From: Paludibacteraceae bacterium
Lineage (GTDB): Bacteria > Bacteroidota > Bacteroidia > Bacteroidales > Paludibacteraceae
Assembly: GCA_024401435.1 (NCBI GenBank)
Contig: JAKSLB010000033.1
Span: forward strand, 1-33,910
Length of the DNA: 33,910 nucleotides
Reading direction: 5' to 3'
Shown here: piece after piece, positions 4,531-33,785 of the stretch
Numbering within the stretch: position 1 is the stretch's first letter
How the letters are laid out: each line of letters starts with the position of its first letter
Position numbers and translations under genes: made by a program
Notes under the pieces: model-generated
Database searches by the model: none
What the model was told of the DNA's origin: nothing
The model's input: only the letters and a program-made list of their open reading frames with translations

Positions 4531-5544
4531 CTATTGTATAGAATCATTATATAGATATTCTACCCACGCAGAATGTTCCTTTTCAGGATTTATGTCTAAC
4601 TCAGAAAAGGTTTGCTCTGTTTTTGTTGTATATGCAGTTTGCAAAAACTTTTTCACAAAATCATCTCCGTATGTGTATTCTAAGTAATGGAAGAAGGATT
4701 CGCCTGCCCAATATTGTGAGATATTCTCTTCTGGAAAATCATTTGTTAATAAACATTTTTCCTTAATGAACTCTATTCGATTGGATGAATTTATTTTTTC
4801 CCATTGTTGAATGTAATTTTTAGCACAGTAGTCTGCAATTCCTTCTATTTCCCAATTGTAAAAAGAGATATCCTTGGAAAAATCGATGGAAGAGAGGAAG
4901 ATATAATGATTCATCTCATGCATTAACACTTTAACATAGTCATACGGATCACGAGGTTTCACAGAGAAACAGATGGGATGAAGCACGATAGATGCTTTAC
5001 AACCTGCATTACCGATTTGTGAAATGGTAACACCTATGGAACCCTTGTCGGTATAGGGTTTGCTTAATATGGCAGATGCTGTTTGCTGATATTCGGTGGG
5101 TGATGTGGCAAGATAGATTGGTAACTTTCTACCATTTGCATCATTTGGGAAAAAATATTTACCCATTAGTTTTGTTAAGGGTATAATGTTTTCATTGGCA
5201 GCTTTCAACACATTTTGAGCATATCCATGCCATGTAGCATCTTTATCCTTTTTATAATAAACAATAAAGAATTCATCCTCTTCTTTAGACCATGTTTCTT
5301 CAGTTTGTCCAAGGTCCTTTTCATTTTCCCAGTCGTATGGTCCGCCCATCACAATATCGACACCTGCCAAGTCTCCGCCTAAGCGAATTAATCCCCTCAA
5401 GAACTTTTGTGTACTTTCTGGAATGGTGGCATAACGTAATGGTGGACGGTCTTGCCCTGTCTTATATACTTTACCCATTAATAGAGCCAATACGATAAAA
5501 ACACCTACTACAGAAGATAATGTGATGATTATTTTTTTCTTCAT
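4531..5544 (-). CDS. Membrane-anchored gluzincin-type metallopeptidase, operon gene 5
   Basis: A 337-residue protein with an N-terminal membrane anchor (residues 5-24) and the rest probably outside the cytoplasm. The zinc site is visible: VLMHEMNHYIF with H209, E210 and H213 (HExxH), and 21 residues on WEIEGIADY with E234 as the likely third ligand. This is the layout of the peptidase MA (gluzincin) group, so it should hydrolyse peptide bonds; the substrate is unknown. It is the last gene of the minus-strand operon, 6 bases after the transglutaminase-like gene. Start ATG 5544 gives a Lys-rich n-region before the anchor. Being an anchored peptidase beside a TGase-like protein, it may trim or mature envelope proteins; that role is inferred. 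Confidence 0.75.
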   Translation of the reverse strand: MKKKIIITLSSVVGVFIVLALLMGKVYKTGQDRPPLRYATIPESTQKFLRGLIRLGGDLAGVDIVMGGPYDWENEKDLGQTEETWSKEEDEFFIVYYKKDKDATWHGYAQNVLKAANENIIPLTKLMGKYFFPNDANGRKLPIYLATSPTEYQQTASAILSKPYTDKGSIGVTISQIGNAGCKASIVLHPICFSVKPRDPYDYVKVLMHEMNHYIFLSSIDFSKDISFYNWEIEGIADYCAKNYIQQWEKINSSNRIEFIKEKCLLTNDFPEENISQYWAGESFFHYLEYTYGDDFVKKFLQTAYTTKTEQTFSELDINPEKEHSAWVEYLYNDSIQ

Positions 5545-5550
5545 AATGTA

Positions 5551-7404
5551 TTATTCGTTTAATTCTTCCAGCGACGATTGTCTTAATTCAACGCGGGTTT
5601 CAAAATCGTTGATTCTTATATCTTCGATTAACTTACCAATACGGTAACCGTCGCCTGTCGTTTCACAGTAAATGTATTGATGATGATTCACATCGACCAT
5701 GATGTCATCTAAAGATGCTGTGTTAATGTAACTTTCCAACCAAGGATTGGTTTTCAATTCAATGGCAATGGCAGAATGTTGTCGTTTGTTGGATGATAGA
5801 TAGACAATATTATAACCCATAAAGAATAGAATCATTGCTGCTAACATGGATTTACAATCACTATCTCCTTCTTGATCAAAGAGTGTTTCGTCTGGATAAC
5901 GAACATATTCTGATGCGAATTGAATGCTTTTACTATTTTTGTCTAATATGAAATCGATATTAGGTTCTTGTACAAAATCTAATGCAAATTGTAACCGATC
6001 CATTTCCCCTAATTTGGCATACTGACATTCATTGATGATGTAACTAGCAATATAGCGTACACGTTCAGTCAATTTGGGATTGGCAATCATTCGATTGAAC
6101 ATTTCATTGATGTAATCTTGTTTAGGCTTTTCTATTCTTTGAGAGAAATAGGGATTTTCATTTCTACAATTGGTATATTCATCCATAGAAAAATGGATGC
6201 TTAAATTTCCATGTAACGTGACACCATTGGCAGAATCTAAGTCCCAATCGTAGGTCCTTGTCATTTCACCAGTAGGAGGGAGCATTGAAGCAAATGGTTT
6301 GACCAATTCTTCTTCCTCGTCTTGAATTTGCTCCTCATCATAATTGGAAATGATTGTCCATGGTCGTTTCATTGCATGCGTGATACCATTTTTGGTAATA
6401 CCGAATCCAATGGCATAGATGAGTGGTAATAGGTCATAATCGTAATAGTGATAGGTGTAGATCATGGCTATTCCACATAATGAGACTGTGATGGAATCGA
6501 ATTTCCCCAGACTTAGACCTTTATTGAGCATATCCAGTTGTGGTTGAAAACTCATGGAGCGTTCGATGCAATTGATCTTAATTTGACGAATGATAGCCCA
6601 TAGTGCATAATAGCAGCCTGCCAAGATAAAGACAGCTGCAAAATCATCGCCTAATAGTGGTCTTCGCAATATGCAAGTATAGGTGAAATAAAGCATTAGG
6701 AATAAAATACTATATACGATGGAGGTTAGCAATGCCGTGTCATTCCATCCGTAGACAGGTTCCTTATAGGTGTTTATTTTTTCTTCTTTCGGACCATATT
6801 TTCGATAGAGTAGTGCAGCGGCACCTGCATGAGCCTCTCTTGTAATGATAGGCGGATTTTTAAAGGTGATGCCAGACAAACAAATATAACCTACGCGTCG
6901 TTGAGTGGGATCTTCAACGGGAATTTTAGGGTCACCCTCGTAGACGTTTAGTTCCTTGTCCAACCATAATGTATACCATGATCTCTTTCCGTTGATGGTG
7001 GGTTCCTCTGGTTTTGATGCTCGTGCGGTATATCCGATGAGAATGGGTTCCTCTTGTTTTAAACTTTGTTTGTAAATCAAGCCATCTTGAGTGATGTATC
7101 CACGCATTCGGTAATCGTTTTGGCATTCTTCATCTTCCATATCACCATTCGCAATCCATACGACGGCATTATCATTTTTGTCAGTTGCAATTCGTGCAGC
7201 AGGTCTTTTGATCTCTTCATTGGTTAGCTTCATTTCAAACAATTCATTGTTCTCTGTCTTGAGATATCCAATGTTACGAAGAGCTTTCCCTGGAGCCGAT
7301 GTCCATATCCATGTTTTCGGACGCATCTGCTGAATGAGCCAATAAAGGAAAGTGATTCCAATGATTGCTATTAGGAAATATAATTTATTTATATCGTCAA
7401 ACAT
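5551..7404 (-). CDS. Multi-TM protein with transglutaminase-like domain, operon gene 4
   Basis: The 617-residue protein has a TM near 8-24, a soluble part (30-215), a membrane block with segments near 225-244, 254-273 and possibly 304-338, then a C-terminal domain (about 380-617). That domain holds the transglutaminase-like core: YVRYPDETLF, then GDSDCKSMLAAMILFFMGYN with C517, RQHSAIAI with H543, and YIYCETTGDG with E581 where most family members have Asp. The 'RYP.ETL...GDC..KS.L.A..L...GY' pattern is well known in prokaryotic transglutaminase-like/cysteine protease-like proteins. The catalytic Cys and His are kept, so it is probably active as a peptidase or amidase-type enzyme, though Glu for Asp is unusual. 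It is 4 bases from the gene before and 6 from the gene after, so surely co-transcribed. Confidence 0.7.
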   Translation of the reverse strand: MFDDINKLYFLIAIIGITFLYWLIQQMRPKTWIWTSAPGKALRNIGYLKTENNELFEMKLTNEEIKRPAARIATDKNDNAVVWIANGDMEDEECQNDYRMRGYITQDGLIYKQSLKQEEPILIGYTARASKPEEPTINGKRSWYTLWLDKELNVYEGDPKIPVEDPTQRRVGYICLSGITFKNPPIITREAHAGAAALLYRKYGPKEEKINTYKEPVYGWNDTALLTSIVYSILFLMLYFTYTCILRRPLLGDDFAAVFILAGCYYALWAIIRQIKINCIERSMSFQPQLDMLNKGLSLGKFDSITVSLCGIAMIYTYHYYDYDLLPLIYAIGFGITKNGITHAMKRPWTIISNYDEEQIQDEEEELVKPFASMLPPTGEMTRTYDWDLDSANGVTLHGNLSIHFSMDEYTNCRNENPYFSQRIEKPKQDYINEMFNRMIANPKLTERVRYIASYIINECQYAKLGEMDRLQFALDFVQEPNIDFILDKNSKSIQFASEYVRYPDETLFDQEGDSDCKSMLAAMILFFMGYNIVYLSSNKRQHSAIAIELKTNPWLESYINTASLDDIMVDVNHHQYIYCETTGDGYRIGKLIEDIRINDFETRVELRQSSLEELNE

Positions 7405-7408
7405 GCTT

Positions 7409-10126
7409 TCAGTCTTTGTTGTTTAGTTTACTTGTATATTGATCTCTAATCTTTAAGGACTCGCTAAAACGTGTTGCATCGAAAAGTTTTAACCATTCGC
7501 TGGAATTATCGTTTTGGCAAATTGCCCATAAGATGAGAGAAGAGGTTGCATTCTGGTATAGTCCCAACTCGTCTTCATTAACCTTTTGACGTCGTATCTC
7601 CATATCAAAGTCTTCGGAAGGAAGAATACGATTGAGTGATAAATTGTCAAATGATCTCCAACGGGTGACAAATAAATATTTCTTCAATAATTCATTGTGC
7701 GAATCAAACTGGTATTGTGTGTTGTGAGATGGCATTCCATCTGTTAATAAACTTTCCAGTTTATGAATGTTACCTTTTACATCTCCTGTTTCGATATCAG
7801 AGTTGGTCGTTAACTCTCCGTTGGTGGCTGCTGCATAGATAAGAGGTTTCAATACATTCTGGTTGTCCATCTTTTCTGCATAAAACCATATCTTTTCTCC
7901 AATTGTAGGATTTTTACGAGGGAGTATATCTTTCTCTATCCTTACCTGAAGGAGATGTTTGAAGTTATTCTGACATATATCCCATTTCTCTGCATCTTCT
8001 TCCTCTTTCTCTTTTTGTGAGAGGAAAACATTGTATCCTAATTCTTCATCAAATTTTCTTTCATGCTGTTCTCTCAACTTTATGTCATGGAAAAGTGACA
8101 TCACTTCATCTTTGTATCGGTGAAGTAGAAGGTGGCAGTCTTCTAAATCCAATGAACTGATTTTGCATGGTACTCGTTGGACGTAGATTTCACGACCTTC
8201 TTCTTCCAAATCCTGAACCATCGTATTCTCTGCAAATGAACCTTGAATGACAGGTTGGTTGAACAAGGTGACTGGTAACTCCGTTTGTGCATAGATATCT
8301 TTAATGGGGTATGGACGAATATCTTTTGTAATGAGCTTGCATCGTTTTAAGTAACTATCACACAAATCAGACATGTTGTCATATAGACAATTCACCTCCG
8401 TTTCAATACGATTGGCAATGCGTGAGTAGGCATCATGCAAATAGTAAGCCTTAATTTTCCTCTCTTTCTTATTTTTTTTACGATAAAAAAGAGCCATGCT
8501 GATAAGTTGGCAGATAAGAGGTATCAAAAATAGGAAAGCAGACCAGTAAACAGCATCCTTTTTGACATTCCCGAGATCTATTAAATCTTTAGAAATTAAG
8601 GTTATTAATGGCATGAAAGTGAGCACAAAGATAATACCCGTCAGGAATGAACGACTTAAACGACCTAAAAATGTAGGTTCTTGTTTGAGTGTGTTGACCA
8701 AATCATTTAGGGCGCTTTGTTTCATTTCCTCGCAATGATGACTCCCTTTTTTACTTTCTAAATCTGCTGTATAAGATTCGTGATAAGATTCAAAATCATC
8801 TTTTAGATTTTTCGGTACATTGTATTGTAATAGGTGTTGCCAGATGTTTTGCTCGATTTGGTTCTTGACACGGCCTTTCATTTTACCTATTTCTGTTTTG
8901 AAACATTTTAGGTTACGAGAAATACGAGACAAACAACCAAAATGAACATTGCTTGTCGTTAGTTGCCTTTCGATGGCAGCAGGCAATGTGGTTTCTGCAA
9001 AGATGTTTTGTGCTCGTTTCCTTGAGGTACTAATCTCTTCTAAGACATTTTCAGACTCCTTCGAGATTACATCTAAGATCTTTAATCGTAAATTGGCGGG
9101 GTAATATTTTAAATATGTCCCATAATAAAGACGCTTCAATTTGTAGTCGGCAAAATTGGCAATCGGATGAGGAGCAGGGTCATTCAAAGTGGCTTTAGAT
9201 AAGTCGAAATCAATGTTTTGAAATTTCATGATGATTTCTTCTGCATCTATTTTATTGAAATCGATTAGTTGATCAATATTATCTGTTTGCTCTAAATCAC
9301 CCTCTTTGCTCAATATGTCAATAACATCGTTTATGACCGTCATCTTCTCTATCTTGTCTTGTACATCTGTGTCAAAGAAGGTGGATGCACAACCTATGGA
9401 GAAGTAAAAATGATCATCCGAACTGCTACCGCTGATTAGCGGATGGACCTTGTCACATACATAATATAGATGAACAAGGCATTGGAATAGATATTCTGCT
9501 TGTTCTTTTGAGGTTAGAATAGGGAAATAGCATTCCGTTCTATTCTGAACATCTTGGTAGAAAAACATACGGTCATAGCCACGTATGGAAGGTATGTTAT
9601 GTTGAACTTCTATCTCTTTTAGGGATAGGTACACTTTTTGGCGTTGATTGACATTCAAACTATTGATGTTAGCAGGAATAAAGTAGGCTCCGATGATAGC
9701 CATACCTTGATGGATATGATTTGGAACAATACGACCTTTTTCCTTTTGCAATAGTACAGCGATAGAAGGGAACACTTGTTGAGATAAATTCTCTGTTGCG
9801 TCACCAAGTACACAAATGTTCATAGTGATCGATCCATCTATGTTGGAATGACGGAGCATTTGAACAAAATCTTGTCCTGCTTTTACAATCTTTTCCTGAA
9901 AATCATAGATGACGAGTGACATCCTTTCTGGATCATCCTGATCAATCGAGGCAAATGGATTGTCAAATTGCGAGTAAAGCCATTGACATTTATTAGAAGC
10001 CCCTTCTGATATCCAGTTTTGTATATCCTCTTGAAAAAGAACACCATGAAGGTGACCGATAAGTTCTTTTAAGCGAACTTGTCGGTCAGAATTCTCAGTT
10101 AAATCAATAATCCAAAGCGGAAGCAT
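7409..10126 (-). CDS. 905-aa two-TM protein, possible degenerate tubulin-like partner, operon gene 3
   Basis: No confident family match. Two TM segments (about 493-511 and 526-548) split it into a large N-terminal part and a charged C-terminal part (about 560-905), rich in helices and probably cytoplasmic. With no signal peptide, both halves should face the cytoplasm. The region 100-265 resembles the order of elements in Tubulin_2-type proteins: a strand-loop-helix NICVLGDATENLSQQVFPSI where the GTP signature would be, KVYLSLKEIE, GYDRMFFYQDV, a helix at AEYLFQCLVHL, and FYFSIGCAS. The glycine signature itself is absent, so it would not bind GTP. The resemblance is by eye only. It starts 11 bases after the tubulin-like gene, so a paralogue-derived partner is reasonable. 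Confidence 0.5.
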   Translation of the reverse strand: MLPLWIIDLTENSDRQVRLKELIGHLHGVLFQEDIQNWISEGASNKCQWLYSQFDNPFASIDQDDPERMSLVIYDFQEKIVKAGQDFVQMLRHSNIDGSITMNICVLGDATENLSQQVFPSIAVLLQKEKGRIVPNHIHQGMAIIGAYFIPANINSLNVNQRQKVYLSLKEIEVQHNIPSIRGYDRMFFYQDVQNRTECYFPILTSKEQAEYLFQCLVHLYYVCDKVHPLISGSSSDDHFYFSIGCASTFFDTDVQDKIEKMTVINDVIDILSKEGDLEQTDNIDQLIDFNKIDAEEIIMKFQNIDFDLSKATLNDPAPHPIANFADYKLKRLYYGTYLKYYPANLRLKILDVISKESENVLEEISTSRKRAQNIFAETTLPAAIERQLTTSNVHFGCLSRISRNLKCFKTEIGKMKGRVKNQIEQNIWQHLLQYNVPKNLKDDFESYHESYTADLESKKGSHHCEEMKQSALNDLVNTLKQEPTFLGRLSRSFLTGIIFVLTFMPLITLISKDLIDLGNVKKDAVYWSAFLFLIPLICQLISMALFYRKKNKKERKIKAYYLHDAYSRIANRIETEVNCLYDNMSDLCDSYLKRCKLITKDIRPYPIKDIYAQTELPVTLFNQPVIQGSFAENTMVQDLEEEGREIYVQRVPCKISSLDLEDCHLLLHRYKDEVMSLFHDIKLREQHERKFDEELGYNVFLSQKEKEEEDAEKWDICQNNFKHLLQVRIEKDILPRKNPTIGEKIWFYAEKMDNQNVLKPLIYAAATNGELTTNSDIETGDVKGNIHKLESLLTDGMPSHNTQYQFDSHNELLKKYLFVTRWRSFDNLSLNRILPSEDFDMEIRRQKVNEDELGLYQNATSSLILWAICQNDNSSEWLKLFDATRFSESLKIRDQYTSKLNNKD

Positions 10127-10137
10127 TCTCTTTTGTT

Positions 10138-13100
10138 TTATCCAATGAATTTATGAACTGTATCATACTCATTGCGTATGATGTTAAAGAATAGGTTATA
10201 TAACCTTTTCTCTTCATCTGTGGCACTTTGTTGCTTTAATAAAGAGATTTTTCTTAAAACTTCTCTTTGTTTTTCTGAATAGAGATCTTTTAAGATCTTT
10301 TCTCCATCATAAACAATTGCAGAGCCATCTTCGTTTAAGCAAATATTACCATTGCTATCTAATGCAGTCTTCTTTTGACGAAGGATAGCTTGTAAGAGTC
10401 TTTCCAATGTTTCACTATAGCGTCTGTTGTAGAACAATTTGAAATATTCTTCAAACTGAATGCTGAAATCAGCTCCTGTAACTTCATCGTATAGTTTCTT
10501 GCCATTTTCAATCTTACGTAAACATAATGCACCTTTGTAGATAGAGAAGGCTTCAGGACGTGCTATTTCGAATGACGTATTATTTTTCTCGTTGGTCAAA
10601 TACATAGACGTTTCAAATGATTCAGGATCAAACTCATCTTCGTAGAACAATGGTTTCAAATCCTTTTCATATTCTTTCAAAAGGAGCATCTTTGCAAATG
10701 TGCGATGTTGTGACAATACCTCATCAGGAAGATCACTCAATGTAATCTTACCAAGGAATTGTGCAAAATCATGGTGGAAATGATATTTCTCACGGAAGGT
10801 GGCATTATTATATACCATTTCAATGTTATCATAAATTCGGTAATCCCTGAAAGATAATCCGTATTTAGATTTCAACACTAAGGCAGAATTGGCATCACCA
10901 CCTGACACATAACGGTGTCTGATATTTCCCTCTTCATATCCTAACATTTCTTTCGCTAAATCTCTGTCTTGCGCAACGAATACAAGGTGTTCCTCCTTCT
11001 TGGTTACCTCAATACGAGCTGTATTGTAGTTGAAGAAGAGAGCAGGACTTAGACTTTTGCGTACTTCGTCTTTCTGTTCGTTTGGTAGATCGTGGAAGAA
11101 GTGAGAAACCTTCTTGTTAGCCCAATTCTCTTGAATATTCTTGTTTTCACGAATCGTTATTTCAAGCGTCTGTTGTGCATAATCCAAAAAGTCTTCAAGG
11201 ATGGCTTCCGGTTTACGATCTTCCAAGGTTGGATTGGCGAAGAAACGACATTCTTCAATCATCTGATTTTCTTTAGCTTTGGCCGATTTGTCTTTTTGAA
11301 TAAGGATATATTGTTCAGCCATTAGTTGTTCTAATCGCTTCTCATTTTTTGTTTCGTAGATACCTTCTTTTATCAAGTTGGACAAGTCCTCACGATTTGG
11401 CGTTTCCGCTCTGTCTTCATCCGCTTGAATGATGTTGCGATAGCAACGACTGAAGAAGTTGTTTGGTTTCCATCCGTTACCATTGCAAATATCTTTGAGC
11501 ATAGGGAGGTAAACTGTGGTAACATCCAAAGCAGTGTTCCCGAATTCGGTAGCCAATCTATCATAATAACGAACGGATTGTTCATTCTTTTCAGATGCTT
11601 TTTCTTTGATTCTTAGAAGTTGACTTTTTAACTTCGCCAATTCATCGCTCTTCTCATTGTTACAGAAATCACGTAATAAATCATGAGCCCAGTTCTTAAT
11701 GATGTGGGAAATGAAATCGTCCACATATTCCTCCAATTTATTGCGATATTCTTGGATATCATTTTTATTCGATTTTGTGATTTTTTCACCAAGAGTACGA
11801 TCTTCTGCATTTTTCTCCAATGTCTCTAATTCTGCACGTTTATCATCCAATTCCTGCTTTTTGACTTGCATTTCGTTGTCTTGTTTTTCATATTCATTAC
11901 GAATGAATGTACGTACAGTATCAACAGCATTGATGGCATAGATAAGACCATGCTCGCGAATCCAATCTTCAGCTTGTTTCCATGCACCACTGATAAGTGT
12001 TTGCTTATAACCGCTTCTTTCTTCAGGTTTGATGGAAGCCGCTTTGACATTTGTTTCGATCGTATCCAATTCACTTTCTACATTGGCTAGTTTTAAGAAA
12101 GCAGGTAATTCTTCTTTCCCGTTAATAAGAGAAGGATCAAGGATATCCGAATCAATAGCCTCTCTTTGTGCTCCGACAAGTTTTGAAGCCAAAGTTCCTG
12201 GTATCTTGTGAGATAATTCTCTGAATAGCTTGTTGTATAATTCAGGTATCTGAGATACAGGGATAGCATTTTCCTTTGCTTCTGCATTCAGTAACCATGT
12301 ACGAAGAATGTCGCGTTCAAAACGTGCGCGGAAATAGCGAGAGAATTGGTCTGTAGGTTTATGTAATTGTACATAACCCATTGGAACCAAGAAGTCTTCA
12401 TGGTTACGTTCCATGATATCATTCATATAGTTGTCTATATCAGAGCGGAAGGTTTCTCCTCCAGCCCCATGATGAAGGATATAGATCATCTCAGCTGTAT
12501 TGTGATACATTACTTGCGTACTACCTAATGATGTTCCCTTGTCTGTTTGAATATCAATAGGAATCATATAGTAGAATGGGCAATACTTACGTTTAGCGTC
12601 AATCAAGTTATAGTCGTTGACAAAGGCCATTCGATGCATCACTGTGTTTTGTTTTTTCTCCTGACTCATCTCTTTGAATGCTTGAATTTCACTGAAAACA
12701 GCATACGCATTCAAGGCATATTTCTCTTCAGTAGCATTGCAATCAATATATACCTTTGGCATATACATGATGAGAATCAATTGAGGATCACCATCCCCAA
12801 CGATTTGTTTGTGTATTTGATTGATATGGTAAAGCACATCATTTACGATACCACTACCTGTACCACCATTGGAACTTCCAACGACCCAATAAAAGATTGT
12901 GCAACTCTCGCCACCGACTGTTTTTACATCATTCAAAGCTGAGATGGCAGCTTGCAGTTTTGTTTGAAAATCTGTGAGTGAATGTGCAAAGGCAATACGT
13001 GATTTGATACGGAAGGCACCTGCACCGAAGCCAAGAGGTTGATCCGGAATTTTAACAGCTAGTTCAGGAGAGCAAGCTTCCAGTATTCGTTTGTTGATCA

Positions 13101-13419
13101 ATGTTGAAGTGTCTTGAGTAGCTTCGTAGTAGATAGCTTGTGGATTGGCTAACCCTAAGTTCACAAGGTCGGATTGAGGGTTAATGAATGGAACCCTTCC
13201 TTCCTCAAAACTCTTTCTGTTGTTCTTGTTCGCCTGGTCTATATCGCGTTGGTCAGTATCAATGAAGAGGAATCTGTACGTTTCATTCATTGCTTCTAAA
13301 CGTGATTTTGTCGCTGTGTGAGTAGGATAGCGGTTAGCGTATACCTTTTCTTTGATTTGAGTGACTGTTTGGCAGCCAGAACCACCTAAGCCGATAAAAA
13401 TGTGTTTTTCGTTTGCCAT
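10138..13419 (-). CDS. Tubulin/FtsZ-like GTPase (Tubulin_2 type), operon gene 2
   Basis: A 1093-residue soluble protein. The N-terminal ~380 residues show the tubulin-superfamily GTP-binding fold: HIFIGLGGSG (6-15, first glycine loop), FIDTD (52-56), GFGAGAFRIKSR (130-141) and the tubulin signature in VGSSNGGTGSGIVNDV (180-195, GGTGSG at 185-190). All loops needed for GTP binding look intact. After it come helical regions with a likely coiled coil (about 505-565), then an ~500-residue C-terminal part I do not recognise. It is far longer than FtsZ and belongs to the large 'tubulin-like' bacterial group proposed to work in membrane remodelling with vWA proteins. It lies about 14 bases from the vWA gene. 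Expected role: GTP-dependent filament or scaffold on the inner face of the membrane (inferred). Confidence 0.85.
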   Translation of the reverse strand: MANEKHIFIGLGGSGCQTVTQIKEKVYANRYPTHTATKSRLEAMNETYRFLFIDTDQRDIDQANKNNRKSFEEGRVPFINPQSDLVNLGLANPQAIYYEATQDTSTLINKRILEACSPELAVKIPDQPLGFGAGAFRIKSRIAFAHSLTDFQTKLQAAISALNDVKTVGGESCTIFYWVVGSSNGGTGSGIVNDVLYHINQIHKQIVGDGDPQLILIMYMPKVYIDCNATEEKYALNAYAVFSEIQAFKEMSQEKKQNTVMHRMAFVNDYNLIDAKRKYCPFYYMIPIDIQTDKGTSLGSTQVMYHNTAEMIYILHHGAGGETFRSDIDNYMNDIMERNHEDFLVPMGYVQLHKPTDQFSRYFRARFERDILRTWLLNAEAKENAIPVSQIPELYNKLFRELSHKIPGTLASKLVGAQREAIDSDILDPSLINGKEELPAFLKLANVESELDTIETNVKAASIKPEERSGYKQTLISGAWKQAEDWIREHGLIYAINAVDTVRTFIRNEYEKQDNEMQVKKQELDDKRAELETLEKNAEDRTLGEKITKSNKNDIQEYRNKLEEYVDDFISHIIKNWAHDLLRDFCNNEKSDELAKLKSQLLRIKEKASEKNEQSVRYYDRLATEFGNTALDVTTVYLPMLKDICNGNGWKPNNFFSRCYRNIIQADEDRAETPNREDLSNLIKEGIYETKNEKRLEQLMAEQYILIQKDKSAKAKENQMIEECRFFANPTLEDRKPEAILEDFLDYAQQTLEITIRENKNIQENWANKKVSHFFHDLPNEQKDEVRKSLSPALFFNYNTARIEVTKKEEHLVFVAQDRDLAKEMLGYEEGNIRHRYVSGGDANSALVLKSKYGLSFRDYRIYDNIEMVYNNATFREKYHFHHDFAQFLGKITLSDLPDEVLSQHRTFAKMLLLKEYEKDLKPLFYEDEFDPESFETSMYLTNEKNNTSFEIARPEAFSIYKGALCLRKIENGKKLYDEVTGADFSIQFEEYFKLFYNRRYSETLERLLQAILRQKKTALDSNGNICLNEDGSAIVYDGEKILKDLYSEKQREVLRKISLLKQQSATDEEKRLYNLFFNIIRNEYDTVHKFIG

Positions 13420-13433
13420 ATATTTATTCTTTA

Positions 13434-15044
13434 TTATTTTTCTATTAATCGAATACTTACATTATGTGTGATGGAACGTTTGTTGGCACCACATTTGATT
13501 TTTGCTAACATATTTCTTTTTGCATCAAGATTCCCCTCTGTGGAAACTTTTGTTCCTGCATAACCTTTCGTTGCACACCATCGGTAATATGGAGTTTTGA
13601 AGAGTAGGAATGGTGATGGTTTTACTTTATTCACTTGAATTGTCCATTCTGCATCATCTACATGAATGTTTGCCGCTTTCCCAATGGAAATGGTTTCACA
13701 TGGACCAAATTTTTTAGCGATGATATTAGCACCATATTCATCATCCACTGTTATTTTCCCTTGCATTTTATCTTTGCTATTTATGGCAATAGCACGAATG
13801 AATAAAATGATGTATATGATTAGTAAAACCAATATGAGAATTGTCAACCAAAGAGGAAGTGGGAATGTGAATATCAGTTTGTCGACAGGAGATTCCGAAC
13901 CAGAAATAGGCTTTACAATTCCCAGTTTACTAAGTTCTGCATCAAAATCAGTAGGTAAGGAGATACCCAAGTTGATGCTATCTTTTAAGGAATGGAATCC
14001 CAATTCTTTATTTTTAATCTTACCTAATTCAATTTCTAGTTGAGTATCTCTAGTTGAGCAGTAATTGTTAGTGTCGTTGATAAAGGAGAAATCTTCTTGG
14101 TGAAGATAAGTTGAATCGATTTTTATTTTTTGGTAAAGTTTGGTAGGAATCCAATTGATTTTAGCGGTGGTATTACCATCGATGTCAATATCCGTTTGCA
14201 TAGATACCTGTCCAGCCTTATTTTCAGAATCCACGATAGCACGAAGTTTCACAACGAGGATATCACGACGAAGTTGTTCGAACCATTGTCCGATTGCCTC
14301 TTTAGAATTACCGGTGCGAATAATTTCGAGTCCGTTTTCTGCCACATTGAAGACGCTGTCACGAAGTTGGTCGAGACAATATTCTTTTTGACTTTTGTTG
14401 TCAACGCCTTCGTCTGTTAGTTCCACAGCGATGCAACGAACGTAACACCCTTGAATAGCAGCTTTCAGTTTGGATTGCATATCCATCAACTCCGCTTCCG
14501 TTAGTTTTCTTTTGTTGAATTTGTGAGGGGGAACTTTCGGAATATTGTTAAGGAAATCGGTAAACGGGATTAAGATGTTTACCTTATATTCGGAGTTGGT
14601 TGTTACCGAATTGGAGATTTCGTTGATTGCCTTGTAGATATTTGTATGGTCGCGGAAGAGTTGATCATAATTACTATTATGATAAAGTTGTTCCATGTTT
14701 GAGAGAAGTGTTTTTTTCATTTCGTCTGAAATGATACCAGAGAAACCCATTGGATTTTTTGTTTCGGTTCCAAAAGGTATGATGGTTATCTTATCACCAT
14801 TCGGAAGTGCTTGAATGAAGTTTTTAAGTAGAGGAACCATAGTTCCCTCATACACATTCATAGAACCAGACACATCAATAGTAAATACATAATGAGCATG
14901 ACAATTGTCGATGTCTTCGCGAAAAGTCTCTGTTAGTTGAGGAAATGTTGTTTCTAAGTATTGTAAAGGAGACTGTGCATAAATACTCCCAGTTATAAGT
15001 CCTAATAATAATGTTATGACAAATATTACGTTTGTTTTTTTCAT
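13434..15044 (-). CDS. Membrane vWA-domain protein with intact MIDAS, operon gene 1
   Basis: With ATG 15044 the protein has 536 residues: signal peptide (1-24, ending IYAQ), vWA domain (about 50-260), an extended part to 390, one TM (about 397-419) and a C-terminal domain of ~115 residues. The metal site is complete: TIDVSGSM with D57, S59, S61; T134; and D163 in IPFTDF. So it can bind Mg or Mn and a protein ligand. If the signal peptide is used, the vWA domain is periplasmic and the tail (420-536) is cytoplasmic, where the tubulin-like protein encoded next would be. Longer starts exist at 15059 and 15074, but the predicted -7 box covers 15072-15079, which rules out the latter. Confidence 0.8.
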   Translation of the reverse strand: MKKTNVIFVITLLLGLITGSIYAQSPLQYLETTFPQLTETFREDIDNCHAHYVFTIDVSGSMNVYEGTMVPLLKNFIQALPNGDKITIIPFGTETKNPMGFSGIISDEMKKTLLSNMEQLYHNSNYDQLFRDHTNIYKAINEISNSVTTNSEYKVNILIPFTDFLNNIPKVPPHKFNKRKLTEAELMDMQSKLKAAIQGCYVRCIAVELTDEGVDNKSQKEYCLDQLRDSVFNVAENGLEIIRTGNSKEAIGQWFEQLRRDILVVKLRAIVDSENKAGQVSMQTDIDIDGNTTAKINWIPTKLYQKIKIDSTYLHQEDFSFINDTNNYCSTRDTQLEIELGKIKNKELGFHSLKDSINLGISLPTDFDAELSKLGIVKPISGSESPVDKLIFTFPLPLWLTILILVLLIIYIILFIRAIAINSKDKMQGKITVDDEYGANIIAKKFGPCETISIGKAANIHVDDAEWTIQVNKVKPSPFLLFKTPYYRWCATKGYAGTKVSTEGNLDAKRNMLAKIKCGANKRSITHNVSIRLIEK

Positions 15045-15071
15045 TTTTTCCGAAATCATTAATCCAATGTA

Positions 15072-15103
15072 CAAGTATAATAAATTTTGTTTATCTATAC
15101 AAT
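15072..15103 (-). promoter_or_regulatory. Promoter of the vWA/tubulin operon
   Basis: On the minus strand ATTG (15100-15103), a 20-base spacer and TATACTTG (15072-15079, one mismatch to TAnnTTTG) form a good Bacteroidota promoter. Transcription would start near 15068, about 24 bases before ATG 15044. No other promoter-sized gap exists within the five-gene run. Confidence 0.5.
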
Positions 15104-15339: not shown

Positions 15340-16200
15340 ATGAGACAACTAAAAATCACTAATTCCATTACAGTGCGTGATGCTTCATTGGAGAAGTATC
15401 TGCAGGATATTTCAAAAGAAGAATTAATCACGACCGAGGAGGAAGTAGAATTGGCTCAGCGAATTCGTAATGGTGACGAAAGAGCGAAAGATAAGTTAGT
15501 TCGTGCCAACTTACGTTTTGTGGTATCTGTAGCCAAGCAATACCAAAATAAGGGAATGAGTCTAACCGATTTAATTAATGAAGGGAATTTGGGTCTTATT
15601 AAAGCAGCGGAGAGATTTGATGAGACACGTGGATTCAAATTCATTTCATTTGCTGTATGGTGGGTACGTCAATCAATTCAGCAGGCGTTATCTGAACAAT
15701 CAAGAATTGTTCGTGTGCCATTGAATCAGGTAGGTTTGCAAAATAAGATAAAGAGAGCCATCTCATCCTTTGAGCAGGAGTTTGGACGTCGTCCGTCTGT
15801 AGAAGAGATAGCTGATAAGATGGATGTTTCAGAAGATAAGATATCTGAAGTATTAGAGATCCCAGATCAGATTAAGTCATTGGATGCGCCGTTTGGTGAA
15901 GATGGTGATGGAAGTTTGGGAGATGTTTTGGAGAACACTGATTCACCACGAGCAGATAGCAGTGTGATGAAAGATTCGTTGCGTCGTGAGATTGAACGTG
16001 CATTATCTACATTGACAGAGAAAGAGAGAGAAGTTTTGAAGATGAGTTTTGGTTTGGGTGATTCTCAAGAGTTGTCATTGGATGAGATAGGTGTTCGTTT
16101 TGATTTGACGCGTGAACGTGTTCGACAAATCAAGGAAAAGGCAATTGTTAAATTGCGTCAGAACTCGTCAAACAATTTATTAAAGAGTTTCCTAGGTTAA
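15340..16200 (+). CDS. rpoD: Primary sigma factor RpoD, short Bacteroidota type
   Basis: The 286-residue protein is the housekeeping sigma factor that directs RNA polymerase to TAnnTTTG promoters. Region 1.2 starts near SLEKYLQDISKEELITTEEE; region 2 includes NLRFVVSVAKQYQNKG, DLINEGNLGLIKAAERFD and FISFAVWWVRQSI; region 3 includes RRPSVEEIADKM; region 4 ends with LSLDEIGVRFDLTRERVRQI. The acidic N-terminal region 1.1 and the long non-conserved insert of E. coli RpoD are missing, as usual in this phylum. It is divergent from the vWA operon and is followed by its own terminator, so it is transcribed alone. Confidence 0.97.
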   Translation: MRQLKITNSITVRDASLEKYLQDISKEELITTEEEVELAQRIRNGDERAKDKLVRANLRFVVSVAKQYQNKGMSLTDLINEGNLGLIKAAERFDETRGFKFISFAVWWVRQSIQQALSEQSRIVRVPLNQVGLQNKIKRAISSFEQEFGRRPSVEEIADKMDVSEDKISEVLEIPDQIKSLDAPFGEDGDGSLGDVLENTDSPRADSSVMKDSLRREIERALSTLTEKEREVLKMSFGLGDSQELSLDEIGVRFDLTRERVRQIKEKAIVKLRQNSSNNLLKSFLG

Positions 16201-28871: not shown

Positions 28872-31208
28872 TTACTTTGCATGCGCACCTGAAAGGGCTA
28901 ATTTTTCGTCTTGAACAATCACTTTTGCTTTTCCTCCCTCTTTTAGTGAACCGAAAAGCACTTCCTTCGTCAAGAGGGTAGTGAGGTGTGCACGGATGAT
29001 ACGATCCATTTCGCGAGCACCATATTCTTTTGAGAAGCCTTTCTTCAATAGGAATGATTTCGCTTCGTCGGATAAGGTGATAGTGACATTTTTTGCTTTT
29101 AATTTTTCTTTCAGAATGTTTACCTTCTTGTCTAACACCCTGCTTGCCATGGTCTCATCCATATCGTTGAAGACAATGATGTCGTTTAGACGGTTGATGA
29201 ATTCTGGTTTGAAGGTTTTCTTTACTTGTGTCAGCATAGCTTTTCCTGCGGTGACTTGTGAACCGAATCCGACGCTTGCTTGATGGGCATATTGGGCACC
29301 AGCATTGGATGTCATGATGAGAATGACGTGTCGGAAATCAGCTTTTCGTCCTTTGTTATCCGTAAGTTTTGCATAGTCCATCACCTGTAGAAGAATGTTG
29401 AAGATATCTGAATGTGCCTTTTCAATTTCATCCAATAACAAGACGCAATTTGGCGTTTTGGTGATAGCGTCGGTTAATAGTCCGCCATCTTCATATCCCA
29501 CATATCCTGCAGGGGAACCAATCAGTTTGGCAACGGTGTGTTTCTCTGCATATTCGCTCATATCGAATCGAACTAAGGAGATACCCATCTTTTCTGCTAA
29601 TACCTTGCACAATTCTGTTTTACCGACACCAGTAGGACCGACAAATAACAAACTGGCTATAGGCTTGGATTCGTCCAAGAGTCCGGCTTTAGACATCTGA
29701 ATGGTCTCTACAATTTGATTGACAGCGGAGTCTTGACCGTAGATATTGGCAAGAATATCTTTTTCCAATGTCTCAAGCAATTCATTGTTTCCTTCATTTT
29801 TCAAGGCTTTCGCATCAATCTTACATATTTTATATAAGAGGGTTGTGATCAAATCCTTTTGAATGATAGGTTGTTTGACACCTTTATGAGGATGAGTTTC
29901 GACATATGCGCCAGCTTCATCAATCAGGTCGATAGCCTTGTCGGGTAAGAATCGGTTGGTGATGAATTCAGCACTGGCATGCACGGCATATTCGATGGCC
30001 TCCTGTTCGTACAGGACGTTGTGGTACTCTTCGTAGAGATGTTTCAGTTGAGAGACGATTTTTATTGTCTCTTCGACAGAAGGTTCCACGATATCGATTT
30101 GTTGGAATCGACGTACGAGACCTTTATCTTTTGAGAAGAATTTATTGTATTCATCGTAGGTGGTACTACCGATGAAACGGATTTCTCCGCCTTCAAGGTA
30201 TGGTTTCAGCATGTTGCTGGCATCTAAGGAGTTATCACCGATTTGACCTGCGCCCACAAGGTTGTGAATTTCATCAATATAGACAATGCATTTACCATTT
30301 TGAGAGAGTCCGTCCATAATGCCTTTAAGACGTTTTTCAAAATCGCCTCTGTATTGCGTACCAGCAATGAGATTCCCCAAGTTGAGTTCATAAATCTTGT
30401 ATCCTTTCAAACGTTTAGGAACTTTCCCTTTATTGATTCGATCAGCCAATCCGTAAACGAGAGCTGTTTTACCCACACCGGGTTCTCCCACGTGGAGAGG
30501 GTTGTTTTTCTCTTTTCTGCAGAGGATTTGGATGGTACGTTCCATCTCTTGTTCCCTACCAATTAAAGGATTTCTACCTTCGAGGTGATCGCTAATGCAT
30601 ACCACTTTATCTTTCCAGCTCTTTTCTGCAAAGTCTTTCCCGCCTAAAATAGGATTTTCATCCTCGTCTTCATTGTTTGGGAAGATGAATTCCACCTTTT
30701 TATCATCCATATTGATGATTCCATTCAAGATGTCTTGTACGTTATCCGTACCACCATAAGCATCAATAAGGATACCTAGGAATTCCCCATAATTTTCTAT
30801 GATATATTTATCAATCAAGAAGCTGGCGAAGCAATCTTTTAGTTCGTGGAGAGCCTGAAAGACGTGAGGCACTTGAATCTCGTCAGCATGAGCAAATTGC
30901 GCGTTTTGGTATAATTGCGCGAACATTGTTTCCATTTGAGCTGAGAATTCCGGTTGGAAGATTTTTTTTGCCTCTTTATCCAGCTCGATATGTTCTGTTT
31001 CGTTTTTGATGTAAGAAAGGAGTTCTTTCTGAAGCGATTTCATATCGACGGAAGATTCCTCTGCCGCATAAATAAACTCTTGTTGGTCTAATAAGGCCAA
31101 TAAGACATGTTCGGGTTGAATATATTCATTCTTATTTTTGACGGTCAGTTTAGTCGCATGAATAAATAGTTGTTCAGCTCTTTTATCTAAATGCATAAAT
31201 GTTTCCAT
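28872..31208 (-). CDS. clpA: Clp protease ATP-binding subunit ClpA
   Basis: A 778-residue AAA+ unfoldase that feeds N-degron substrates to ClpP. It has the N-terminal Clp repeat domain (about 5-150) that docks ClpS, AAA domain 1 with Walker A GEPGVGKT (241-248) and Walker B VYIDEIH, and AAA domain 2 with Walker A GPTGVGKT (524-531) and Walker B LLLDEIE. There is no long ClpB-type middle coiled coil, which supports ClpA. The loop HQASVGFGSQ holds a V-G-F in the place of the I-G-L/F ClpP-docking tripeptide. The start may be the fifth codon (MHLDKR) instead of the first. clpP is not in this window. Confidence 0.95.
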   Translation of the reverse strand: METFMHLDKRAEQLFIHATKLTVKNKNEYIQPEHVLLALLDQQEFIYAAEESSVDMKSLQKELLSYIKNETEHIELDKEAKKIFQPEFSAQMETMFAQLYQNAQFAHADEIQVPHVFQALHELKDCFASFLIDKYIIENYGEFLGILIDAYGGTDNVQDILNGIINMDDKKVEFIFPNNEDEDENPILGGKDFAEKSWKDKVVCISDHLEGRNPLIGREQEMERTIQILCRKEKNNPLHVGEPGVGKTALVYGLADRINKGKVPKRLKGYKIYELNLGNLIAGTQYRGDFEKRLKGIMDGLSQNGKCIVYIDEIHNLVGAGQIGDNSLDASNMLKPYLEGGEIRFIGSTTYDEYNKFFSKDKGLVRRFQQIDIVEPSVEETIKIVSQLKHLYEEYHNVLYEQEAIEYAVHASAEFITNRFLPDKAIDLIDEAGAYVETHPHKGVKQPIIQKDLITTLLYKICKIDAKALKNEGNNELLETLEKDILANIYGQDSAVNQIVETIQMSKAGLLDESKPIASLLFVGPTGVGKTELCKVLAEKMGISLVRFDMSEYAEKHTVAKLIGSPAGYVGYEDGGLLTDAITKTPNCVLLLDEIEKAHSDIFNILLQVMDYAKLTDNKGRKADFRHVILIMTSNAGAQYAHQASVGFGSQVTAGKAMLTQVKKTFKPEFINRLNDIIVFNDMDETMASRVLDKKVNILKEKLKAKNVTITLSDEAKSFLLKKGFSKEYGAREMDRIIRAHLTTLLTKEVLFGSLKEGGKAKVIVQDEKLALSGAHAK

Positions 31209-31877: not shown

Positions 31878-33785
31878 ATGGGAAAGATTATTGGTATTGA
31901 CTTAGGAACCACGAATTCCTGTGTCGCTGTGATGGAAGGTAATGAACCTAATGTCATCACAAATAGTGAAGGTAAACGTACGACACCTTCAGTAATCGGT
32001 TTTATTGATGGCGGAGAGCGTAAGATTGGAGATCCAGCAAAGAGACAAGCAATTACCAATCCGCAGAAGACAGTTTTCTCTATCAAGAGATTCATGGGAG
32101 AGTCATATGATAGATTAACACAAGAGATTTCACGTGTACCTTATAAGGTAGTTCGTGGAGCAAACAACACACCACGTGTAGACATTGATGGACGTATGTA
32201 TACTCCACAAGAGATTTCAGCCATGGTTCTTCAAAAGATGAAGAGTACAGCAGAGGAGTATTTAGGAGAGACAGTAACAGAAGCTGTTATCACTGTTCCT
32301 GCATACTTTAATGATGCACAACGTCAGGCAACCAAGGAAGCAGGTGAGATTGCAGGTTTGACAGTAAAACGTATTGTTAACGAACCAACAGCAGCTGCTT
32401 TGGCATATGGTTTGGATAAGAAGAATCAAGATATGAAGATTGTTGTGTTCGACTGTGGTGGTGGAACACACGATGTGTCAATCCTTGAGTTAGGAGATGG
32501 TGTATTTGAAGTTAAGGCAACAGATGGAGATACACACTTAGGAGGAGATGATTTCGATCAGAGAATCATTGAATGGTTGGTACAAGAGTTCAAGAATGAT
32601 AACAGTGGTGTTGATTTGTCGAAAGATCCAATGGCATTGCAACGTTTAAAAGAGGCTGCAGAGAAGGCTAAGATTGAGTTGTCTAACACAACTTCAACAG
32701 AGATCAATTTGCCATATATCATGCCAGTTGATGGTGTTCCAAGACACTTGGTTAAGACGTTGACACGTGCTAAGTTTGAACAATTGGTTGATGATTTGAT
32801 TCAACGTACCATTGATCCATGTAAGAAAGCATTGCAAAATGCAGGCTTGTCAACAAGTGATATCAATGAGGTTATCTTGGTAGGAGGATCAACACGTATC
32901 CCAGCTATTCAAGCAGCTGTAGAGAAGTTCTTTGGTAAGGCACCATCTAAGGGTGTTAACCCAGATGAGGTTGTTGCCATTGGTGCAGCTATCCAAGGAG
33001 GAGTATTGACAGGAGAGGTAAAAGATGTCTTATTGTTGGATGTAACACCACTTTCGTTAGGTATTGAGACAATGGGAGGTGTAATGACTAAATTGATTGA
33101 GTCTAACACGACCATACCAACAAAGAAGTCGGAAGTCTTTACGACAGCCGTAGATAATCAACCATCTGTTGAGATTCACGTATTGCAAGGAGAGCGTTCA
33201 TTGGCAAAAGATAACAAGACGATTGGACGTTTCCATTTGGATGGTATCATGCCAGCACGTCGTGGAGAGCCACAGATTGAGGTAACATTTGATATTGATG
33301 CGAATGGTATCTTGAATGTATCAGCGAAGGATAAGGCAACAGGTAAGGAGCAAAAGATTCGTATTGAGGCATCATCAGGTTTGTCAGACGATGAGATCAA
33401 ACGTATGAAAGCAGAGGCAGAAGCTAATGCAGATGCAGATAAGAAGGAGAAGGAGCGTATAGATAAGATCAATCAAGCAGATAGTGTTATTTTCCAAACT
33501 GAGAAGAATTTGAAGGAGTATGGAGATAAGTTACCTGCAGATAAGAGATCAGCTATTGAGTCTGCATTATCACGTTTGAAGGATGCTCACAGAGCACAAG
33601 ATGTTGCAGGTATCGATGCCGCTATGAATGATGTAAACGCAGCCTTCCAAGCCGCATCACAAGATATGTACAATGCACAATCACAAGCAGGTCCTCAAGG
33701 TGGATACCAAGGTGGCCAAAGTGATGGTAATCAAGGAAATAATGGTGATAATATTACTGATGTGGATTTTGAGGAGGTCAAATGA
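31878..33785 (+). CDS. dnaK: Hsp70 chaperone DnaK
   Basis: The 635-residue chaperone has an ATPase domain (1 to about 380), a linker [18 protein letters not shown], the substrate-binding beta domain and a helical lid ending in a Gly/Gln/Asn-rich tail, with the end sequence [10 protein letters not shown] matching EEVD-like bacterial tails. [17 protein letters not shown] opens it. The phosphate-2 loop reads [16 protein letters not shown], where nearly all DnaK proteins have DLGGGTFDVS, so Leu is Cys193 and Phe is His198. No dnaJ or grpE is nearby, and the gene is alone between two terminator-bounded regions. A weak promoter (TTTG 31789-31792, then TTAGTGTG) is possible. Confidence 0.98.

Follow-up and report, generated by a model that had tools for sequence, protein, structure and literature searches.

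How can a cytoplasmic relative of FtsZ act together with partners on the other side of the inner membrane? This question is raised by a unit of five minus-strand genes in the window analysed here, a stretch of 33,910 nucleotides from a gut bacterium (contig JAKSLB010000033.1 of the Paludibacteraceae bacterium assembly GCA_024401435.1, contig 132 of a genome of 3.8 Mb in 204 contigs). FtsZ-like family 1 proteins (FtsZl1, Tubulin_2) were linked to vWA proteins by gene context in 2010 by Makarova and Koonin; a membrane-remodelling or vesicle role was proposed for them, and a reviewer of that paper asked by what means an FtsZ-like protein in the cytoplasm could cooperate with partners in the periplasm (PMC2875224). 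The answer preferred here, to which we give an even chance, is an inner-membrane machine with two tubulins, in which the GTPase TUB would act on a membrane-anchored pseudo-tubulin, ORF905, and be coupled to a periplasmic vWA sensor. Gene content, gene order, co-occurrence, motifs and dN/dS were computed for this analysis, and folds and topologies were predicted. The features of the unit are as follows.

13434..15074, minus strand: VWA, with a signal peptide, a vWA domain with intact metal ion-dependent adhesion site (MIDAS; predicted periplasmic), one transmembrane helix (~408-426) and a predicted cytoplasmic tail of ~110 amino acids (AA) (Pfam VWA_2/VWA_3, alignment, hydropathy and charge)
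14862..14876, minus strand: MIDAS motif DVSGS, residues 67-71 of VWA counted from TTG 15074 (alignment)
10138..13419, minus strand: TUB, Tubulin_2 (FtsZ-like 1), 1093 AA (PF13809, E 2.8e-33)
12850..12867, minus strand: GGTGSG nucleotide-binding loop, residues 185-190 of TUB (alignment)
7409..10126, minus strand: ORF905, predicted tubulin-fold partner without nucleotide loop, with a long helical region and a transmembrane hairpin (model, fold searches, profile alignment)
9776..9793, minus strand: ENLSQQ, residues 112-117 of ORF905, degenerate counterpart of the tubulin GGTGSG loop (alignment)
8480..8659, minus strand: predicted transmembrane hairpin of ORF905, residues ~490-549 (hydropathy and model)
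5551..7404, minus strand: TG, multi-pass membrane protein with a C-terminal transglutaminase-like (TGase-like) domain (~365-612), probably cytoplasmic (alignment, hydropathy, model, profile)
5854..5868, minus strand: GDSDC, residues 513-517 of TG, with Ser at the canonical nucleophile site 515 and Cys at 517
4531..5544, minus strand: PEP, putative metallopeptidase of gluzincin-like type, anchored at its N-terminus, with a domain predicted to be periplasmic (ORF calling, Pfam, PDB search, hydropathy)
4906..4920, minus strand: HEMNH, residues 209-213 of PEP, with E234 downstream (alignment)

ORF calling places the five genes head to tail in the order VWA, TUB, ORF905, TG and PEP, with gaps of 14, 11, 4 and 6 bases; an earlier note on this DNA had described five minus-strand genes with gaps of 4 to about 14 bases. 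These small gaps and the conserved gene order support the reading of the unit as an operon. The end given for it in the earlier note, 15103, lies outside the VWA ORF, for which TTG 15074, ATG 15059 and ATG 15044 are the candidate starts. Four of the five proteins had been named there; the third gene, encoding 905 AA, was left unnamed and its predicted second tubulin fold was missed, yet it is the most informative of the five.

The assignment of ORF905 to the tubulin fold comes from its predicted structure (pLDDT 83.9, pTM 0.66) and from fold searches. Since a glycine-rich nucleotide loop is absent in all 23 aligned members, the protein is called tubulin-fold and not a GTPase. Hydropathy and the positive-inside rule, applied over the family, predict a membrane hairpin with both large domains in the cytoplasm. 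The missing loop and the hairpin, which apparently lies between the two matched parts of the protein, distinguish ORF905 from CetZ, TubZ, BtubAB and FtsZ. A divergent subgroup, ORF933, matches ORF905 over its first ~610 residues (hhalign, 97-98%) and was the only neighbourhood family above 25% probability when compared with ORF905; with the post-TUB protein L151_768 as the query, a probability of 80% to ORF905 was obtained. In one locus (L113), ORF933 contains a vWA-like stretch below the Pfam cut-off. The alignments used here and below (A1-A4) contain 19, 16, 22 and 23 sequences picked for spread, with locus L115 not included in A4.

TUB matches PF13809 with 116.1 bits against a curated cut-off of 27. 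The intact GGTGSG signature claimed in the earlier note was found and agrees with the GGGTG(S/T)G-type nucleotide loop of FtsZl1, and a GG[TS]GS loop is present in all 38 aligned sequences, including that of the window; we infer that TUB binds GTP. No transmembrane segment was detected by hydropathy, and the length of TUB is compatible with the FtsZl1 layout of a central coiled coil and a helical C-terminal domain.

VWA matches two Pfam models (VWA_2 and VWA_3) narrowly above the cut-off, and a PDB sequence search returned weak vWA matches. As for the full MIDAS reported before, all 22 aligned sequences share D67, S69 and D173, and at least 90% have T144. Positive charge follows the transmembrane helix, and the vWA domain is therefore predicted to lie in the periplasm and the ~110-AA tail in the cytoplasm. 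The idea of a cytoskeletal element on the inner face with a transmembrane vWA protein fits this predicted topology. Immediately upstream of VWA in the loci L102-L106, an ORF of ~297 AA without Pfam match was observed (c20, e.g. L104:6357-7253), which is a possible sixth member.

The fold and family profile place TG in the transglutaminase-like superfamily. In the Cys-His core described earlier, the Cys that had been seen is C517; the canonical position 515 is occupied by Ser. Among the 31 operon TGs, the canonical Cys of the GDC motif is kept in five and lost in 26; these were aligned with the distant locus L150 in a set of 32 rows, in which six rows from the genus g214 align poorly at the active site. 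The window TG has no Pfam match, and nine of 19 TG members match DUF553, a transglutaminase-like family, with E no higher than 0.1 (4.4e-8 for the best). A PDB sequence search returned only chance-level membrane-protein matches. Foldseek results for the TG model were uninformative by E-value, most rows being immunoglobulin-like, and transglutaminase folds came first only in the VIA-align re-ranking. The first helix is predicted to start outside; hydropathy gives three helices before the TGase-like domain in the window and two to five in relatives, and the model shows five membrane-length helices. An odd number of transmembrane helices would place the domain in the cytoplasm, although this placement is uncertain. 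A Ser in place of the canonical Cys, a multi-pass membrane part and a domain predicted to be cytoplasmic differentiate TG from LapG-type and other transglutaminase-like proteins.

TG-like ORFs also occur alone. Outside the operon, the solitary ORFs at L198:8558-9397, L199:114-983, L200:9289-10122, L201:9405-10211, L202:9281-10165, L203:9513-10073 and L205:1490-2374 keep GDC, His and Glu, unlike most operon copies, and a further one at L204:8882-9598 lacks the segment with these residues.

For PEP, an HExxH site with membrane anchors had been described and was found as HEMNH with E234 and an N-terminal anchor; hydropathy and the positive-inside rule over the family suggest an inside N-terminus and an outside domain. 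HExxH is intact in 14 of 22 PEP members, including the window, and lost in eight. Similarity to known families is low, with 17.3 bits to DUF2268 (cut-off 23.6) and a weak match to collagenases in the PDB sequence search (E 0.078). PEP is absent from nine of the 31 loci with TG. Periplasmic protein processing, proposed in the earlier note, is therefore compatible with the predicted topology of PEP only; this idea is weakened by the predicted cytoplasmic TGase-like domain, the loss of the canonical Cys and the absent or degenerate PEP copies. dN/dS was determined in 56 comparisons, of which 47 were finite; nine were saturated and left out. The protease folds have apparently been kept by selection after the loss of catalytic residues.

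Some neighbours of TG and PEP were observed in addition. A trypsin-PDZ (HtrA-like) gene lies near TG in five of six g214 loci without PEP (L098, L099, L100, L130 and L131) and may be an ordinary neighbour. Replacement of PEP by another protease in g214 was considered and dropped, as there are intervening genes in three loci, the loci may represent one genomic place, and the gene may be an ordinary HtrA-type gene. A gene for a DNA/RNA non-specific endonuclease comes after TG in L107 (L107:1761-2666), which has no PEP; in L102 (L102:15882-16670), such a gene comes after PEP.

The occurrence of the unit was mapped in 74 fetched neighbourhoods and the window, with L152-L155 containing no match to the five profiles. 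VWA, TUB, ORF905 and TG stand in this order in 31 loci, 22 of which continue with PEP. L109 is counted among the 31, although its contig breaks off ahead of VWA and its TG is in two pieces. Six further loci (L111-L116) carry VWA and TUB followed by ORF933, with no match to TG or PEP. Of the 37 ORF905-type loci, 36 contain VWA, and the exception, L109, stops at the contig edge. Among 358 genomes of the family, Tubulin_2 was found in 64 (61 above the cut-off), the ORF905 family in 37, all of them mapped here and always directly after a Tubulin_2 gene, and PEP in 22, always at this operon. The ORF905 count includes G623, with a second copy on the same contig as its TUB, and G578, in which the ORF (ORF933) is split. 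The co-occurrence that a single system implies is therefore seen in these genomes; the TGase-like relatives outside the operon speak against strict coupling.

Within the genus, 8 of the 16 genomes carry Tubulin_2 at E up to 0.001; the counts are 20 of 393 in an order sample and 13 of 395 in a phylum sample. The unit stands at differing chromosomal sites, and the flanking genes vary between species, the side with a sigma factor and pyrE being common to the window, G004 and G014. The five-gene unit is an accessory system that has been gained and lost between species. In a TUB tree of 38 proteins, seven of the eight copies from the window's genus form a group with one g214 copy, G743 (support 100/100), and six further g214 copies make a clade of their own. 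The remaining copy from the window's genus, G009, is placed with genus g4, where support is lower (91/85). Transfer between genera is the likeliest explanation, and an old duplication followed by losses is the alternative. Seven named ORF905 loci come from metagenome-assembled genomes, six assigned to Paludibacteraceae and one to Bacteroidales; the isolate names of five point to fore-stomachs of goat, sheep or buffalo or to horse faeces.

Taken as a machine, the unit would work as follows. TUB would be the cytoplasmic GTP-binding Tubulin_2 protein, and ORF905 a tubulin fold minus the nucleotide loop that is fixed in the membrane by its hairpin. TUB might assemble on ORF905 at the membrane, or be capped or nucleated by it, with the GTP state setting assembly. 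With its metal-dependent binding domain on the periplasmic side and its tail on the cytoplasmic side, VWA could relay the state of a ligand across the membrane. TG and PEP may be accessory arms, one with a cytoplasmic protease-fold domain and the other with a periplasmic gluzincin-like domain, serving as binding modules in many species and as catalysts in some. Complex formation between TUB and ORF905 and the direction of signalling are presumed in this scheme, and the role may be a response to envelope stress or conflict, not core division.

Other Tubulin_2 loci of the phylum contain vWA-like proteins (c9, c25 and c26), mostly below the Pfam cut-off, or a TssR-like protein above it, and papain-like (c14) or trypsin-like (c6) proteins stand beside Tubulin_2 in other locus types. 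In the type with c11, c10, c13 and c8 after TUB, neither a vWA domain nor a protease was found in the three families scanned (c8, c10 and c11). Because of this mixed content, the theme of tubulin, vWA and protease fold is recurrent but not universal. One type with shared clusters (L117:1-20000, L118:1-13169 and L121:1-20000) carries in L117 a TssR-like protein (TssR_VWA, E 2.4e-18) and an FtsX-like permease, and in L117 and L118 also the trypsin-like c6 protein; Tubulin_2 is possibly tied to relatives of type VI secretion membrane components. In a subtype with the order vWA-like c9, c17 (not always present), TUB and c14 (L124:6980-15048 and L123:5902-14520), the ~400 N-terminal residues of the papain-like c14 (1139 AA in L124) weakly align to Tubulin_2 (hhalign, E 1.6e-3), and c14 is possibly a pseudo-tubulin fused to a protease. 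The c43 family (473-528 AA; L152:368-1954, L153:8469-9890 and L154:8956-10458) lies near or below the Tubulin_2 cut-off and aligns strongly to its profile (E 1.3e-10); a c77 gene of ~1120 AA comes next in L153 and L154.

A wider version of the proposal is more tentative, and we lean against it. It holds that a nucleotide-dead, membrane-inserted paralogue and a GTPase Tubulin_2 form an asymmetric assembly, a transmembrane tubulin, which recurs in several Tubulin_2 systems; the partner gene of one other subtype also encodes a papain-like protease domain. Assembly driven by GTP would be relayed across the membrane to the periplasmic vWA sensor, and the protease folds would be non-catalytic binding arms. 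If true, this pairing would account for the cooperation of an FtsZ-like protein in the cytoplasm with partners in the periplasm, the point of the objection raised in 2010.

Alternatively, the unit could be a conflict or defence system, in which the vWA protein is the sensor, the tubulin assembles and exchangeable effectors are provided by the protease-fold proteins. We consider this unlikely, although it is consistent with the patchy occurrence within the genus, the differing flanks, the grouping of a g214 copy with the window's genus and the papain- or trypsin-like neighbours of other loci. Moreover, tubulin and vWA conflict systems, some with two tubulin genes, are described in other phyla by Kaur et al. 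2020 (PMC7159879). The GAP1-N2 systems presented there resemble the unit in combining tubulin and vWA, in having one membrane-bound vWA protein with the vWA domain outside and, in Firmicutes versions, in carrying two tubulin genes; they differ in that both tubulins are named tubulin domains. The Pfam scan of the five genes revealed no GTPase/GAP1 components, GAP1 not having been searched for elsewhere in the genome. None of the five operon proteins had a PADLOC match at E up to 1. Among ten flanking proteins two matched, one to PD-T4-2_B (E 1.1e-36, covering the final part of the profile), a protein which Pfam calls Ribonuc_L-PSP, and one weakly to 'Hydrolase' (E 0.0027). Pfam gave a family for nine of ten flank proteins (seven from the PADLOC ten, one L101 neighbour and two from the window), e.g. 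sigma-70, DUF362, aminotransferase, cation efflux and PNTB, so the flanks read as ordinary and not as a defence island. Often degenerate active sites would be odd for effectors. A mobile element was considered and rejected: the TUB query has no relative in the plasmid, phage and viral_contigs collections, where the viral scan is able to detect close relatives only.

Still less probable is a system for membrane remodelling or vesicles, the role suggested for FtsZl1 in 2010, with TG and PEP as envelope-processing enzymes, which was the view of the earlier note. Here, the Tubulin_2 and vWA pair fits the published context, HExxH is intact in most PEP members and five operon TGs retain the canonical Cys. 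The unit further shares with FtsZl1 systems, as PMC2875224 presents them, a long C-terminal extension of the GGTGSG-bearing Tubulin_2, an operonic vWA gene, which the majority of the described operons have, membrane-associated partners and patchy spread. However, the TG nucleophile is not conserved, its domain is predicted to be cytoplasmic, and many members have a degenerate PEP or none. In the five genes, Pfam detected no P-loop GTPase, kinase or OmpA domain; they instead include a predicted membrane-anchored tubulin-fold partner and TGase-like and gluzincin-like proteins, some of which may belong to families A1-A2 or B1-B9 of that paper.

Several results weigh against the two-tubulin machine. 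Foldseek against PDB gave nothing under E 0.001 for ORF905, with a helical toxin at rank 1 and the best tubulin at 2.4e-3, and the sequence link to tubulin is weak (hhalign E 5.6e-4 to 7.3e-4, probability 26-30%). This link was not seen for ORF933 (E 0.13), nor in eight other families directly after TUB (c6, c11, L138_770, L144_777, L145_525, L147_693, L149_1187 and L151_768; E 0.10-0.70). The TG profile was detected in 12 genomes among 41 relatives; ten of these have the operon, G008 and G040 lack it, and G008 also lacks Tubulin_2, which counts against strict coupling. The five proteins, without PADLOC match, and their ordinary flanks give no clue to a role. Finally, TAnnTTTG is the Bacteroidetes -7 box, and no exact copy occurs on the minus strand in the 265-base gap upstream of VWA; the single shared promoter claimed for the unit was not confirmed. 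Further searches with ORF905 returned no match in Pfam, NCBIfam and PADLOC at E up to 1, chance-level membrane-protein matches in the PDB sequence search, and nothing under E 0.001 in a viral fold search, where phage tubulin and division proteins ranked 3-4. That ORF905 is an unrelated Rossmann-like membrane protein drawn towards tubulin by structure prediction and search would agree with the weak sequence signal, the marginal Foldseek E-value and the absence of the GTP motif in every aligned member, and is considered improbable.

Regarding the surroundings, a sigma-70 family gene (15340-16200) is divergent from the operon. Copies of 98% stand beside the operons of G004 and G014, which carry a 67-68% paralogue elsewhere; G002 has a 96% copy away from the operon, G003 one of 67%, and the remaining 11 genomes of the 15 that were searched have copies of 69-71%. 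An empty site beside the sigma factor was sought and given up: the closest sigma gene and pyrE of G002 lie ~34 kb apart on one contig, and pyrE and the other sought window flank genes occur in none of ten sigma-gene regions (L172-L181). Large ORFs of 778 AA (28872-31208) and 635 AA (31878-33785) lie at the far end of the window.

No account of these five genes as a unit, nor of a tubulin partner that is nucleotide-dead and anchored in the membrane, was found in the literature, a weak negative as most subscription papers, preprints and supplements were outside the search. The comparison suggests that the unit is a variant of known FtsZl1/vWA systems, in which the vWA link has been known since 2010 and the predicted membrane-anchored dead tubulin partner would be new. 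ORF905 would be an additional tubulin relative, one that has moved into the membrane and no longer has its nucleotide loop. Such a partner with its own membrane anchor would provide the concrete link between cytoplasmic Tubulin_2 and its periplasmic neighbours that has been lacking since the gene-context prediction, and the unit hints at a way in which filaments inside the cell could be connected to the outer side of the membrane.

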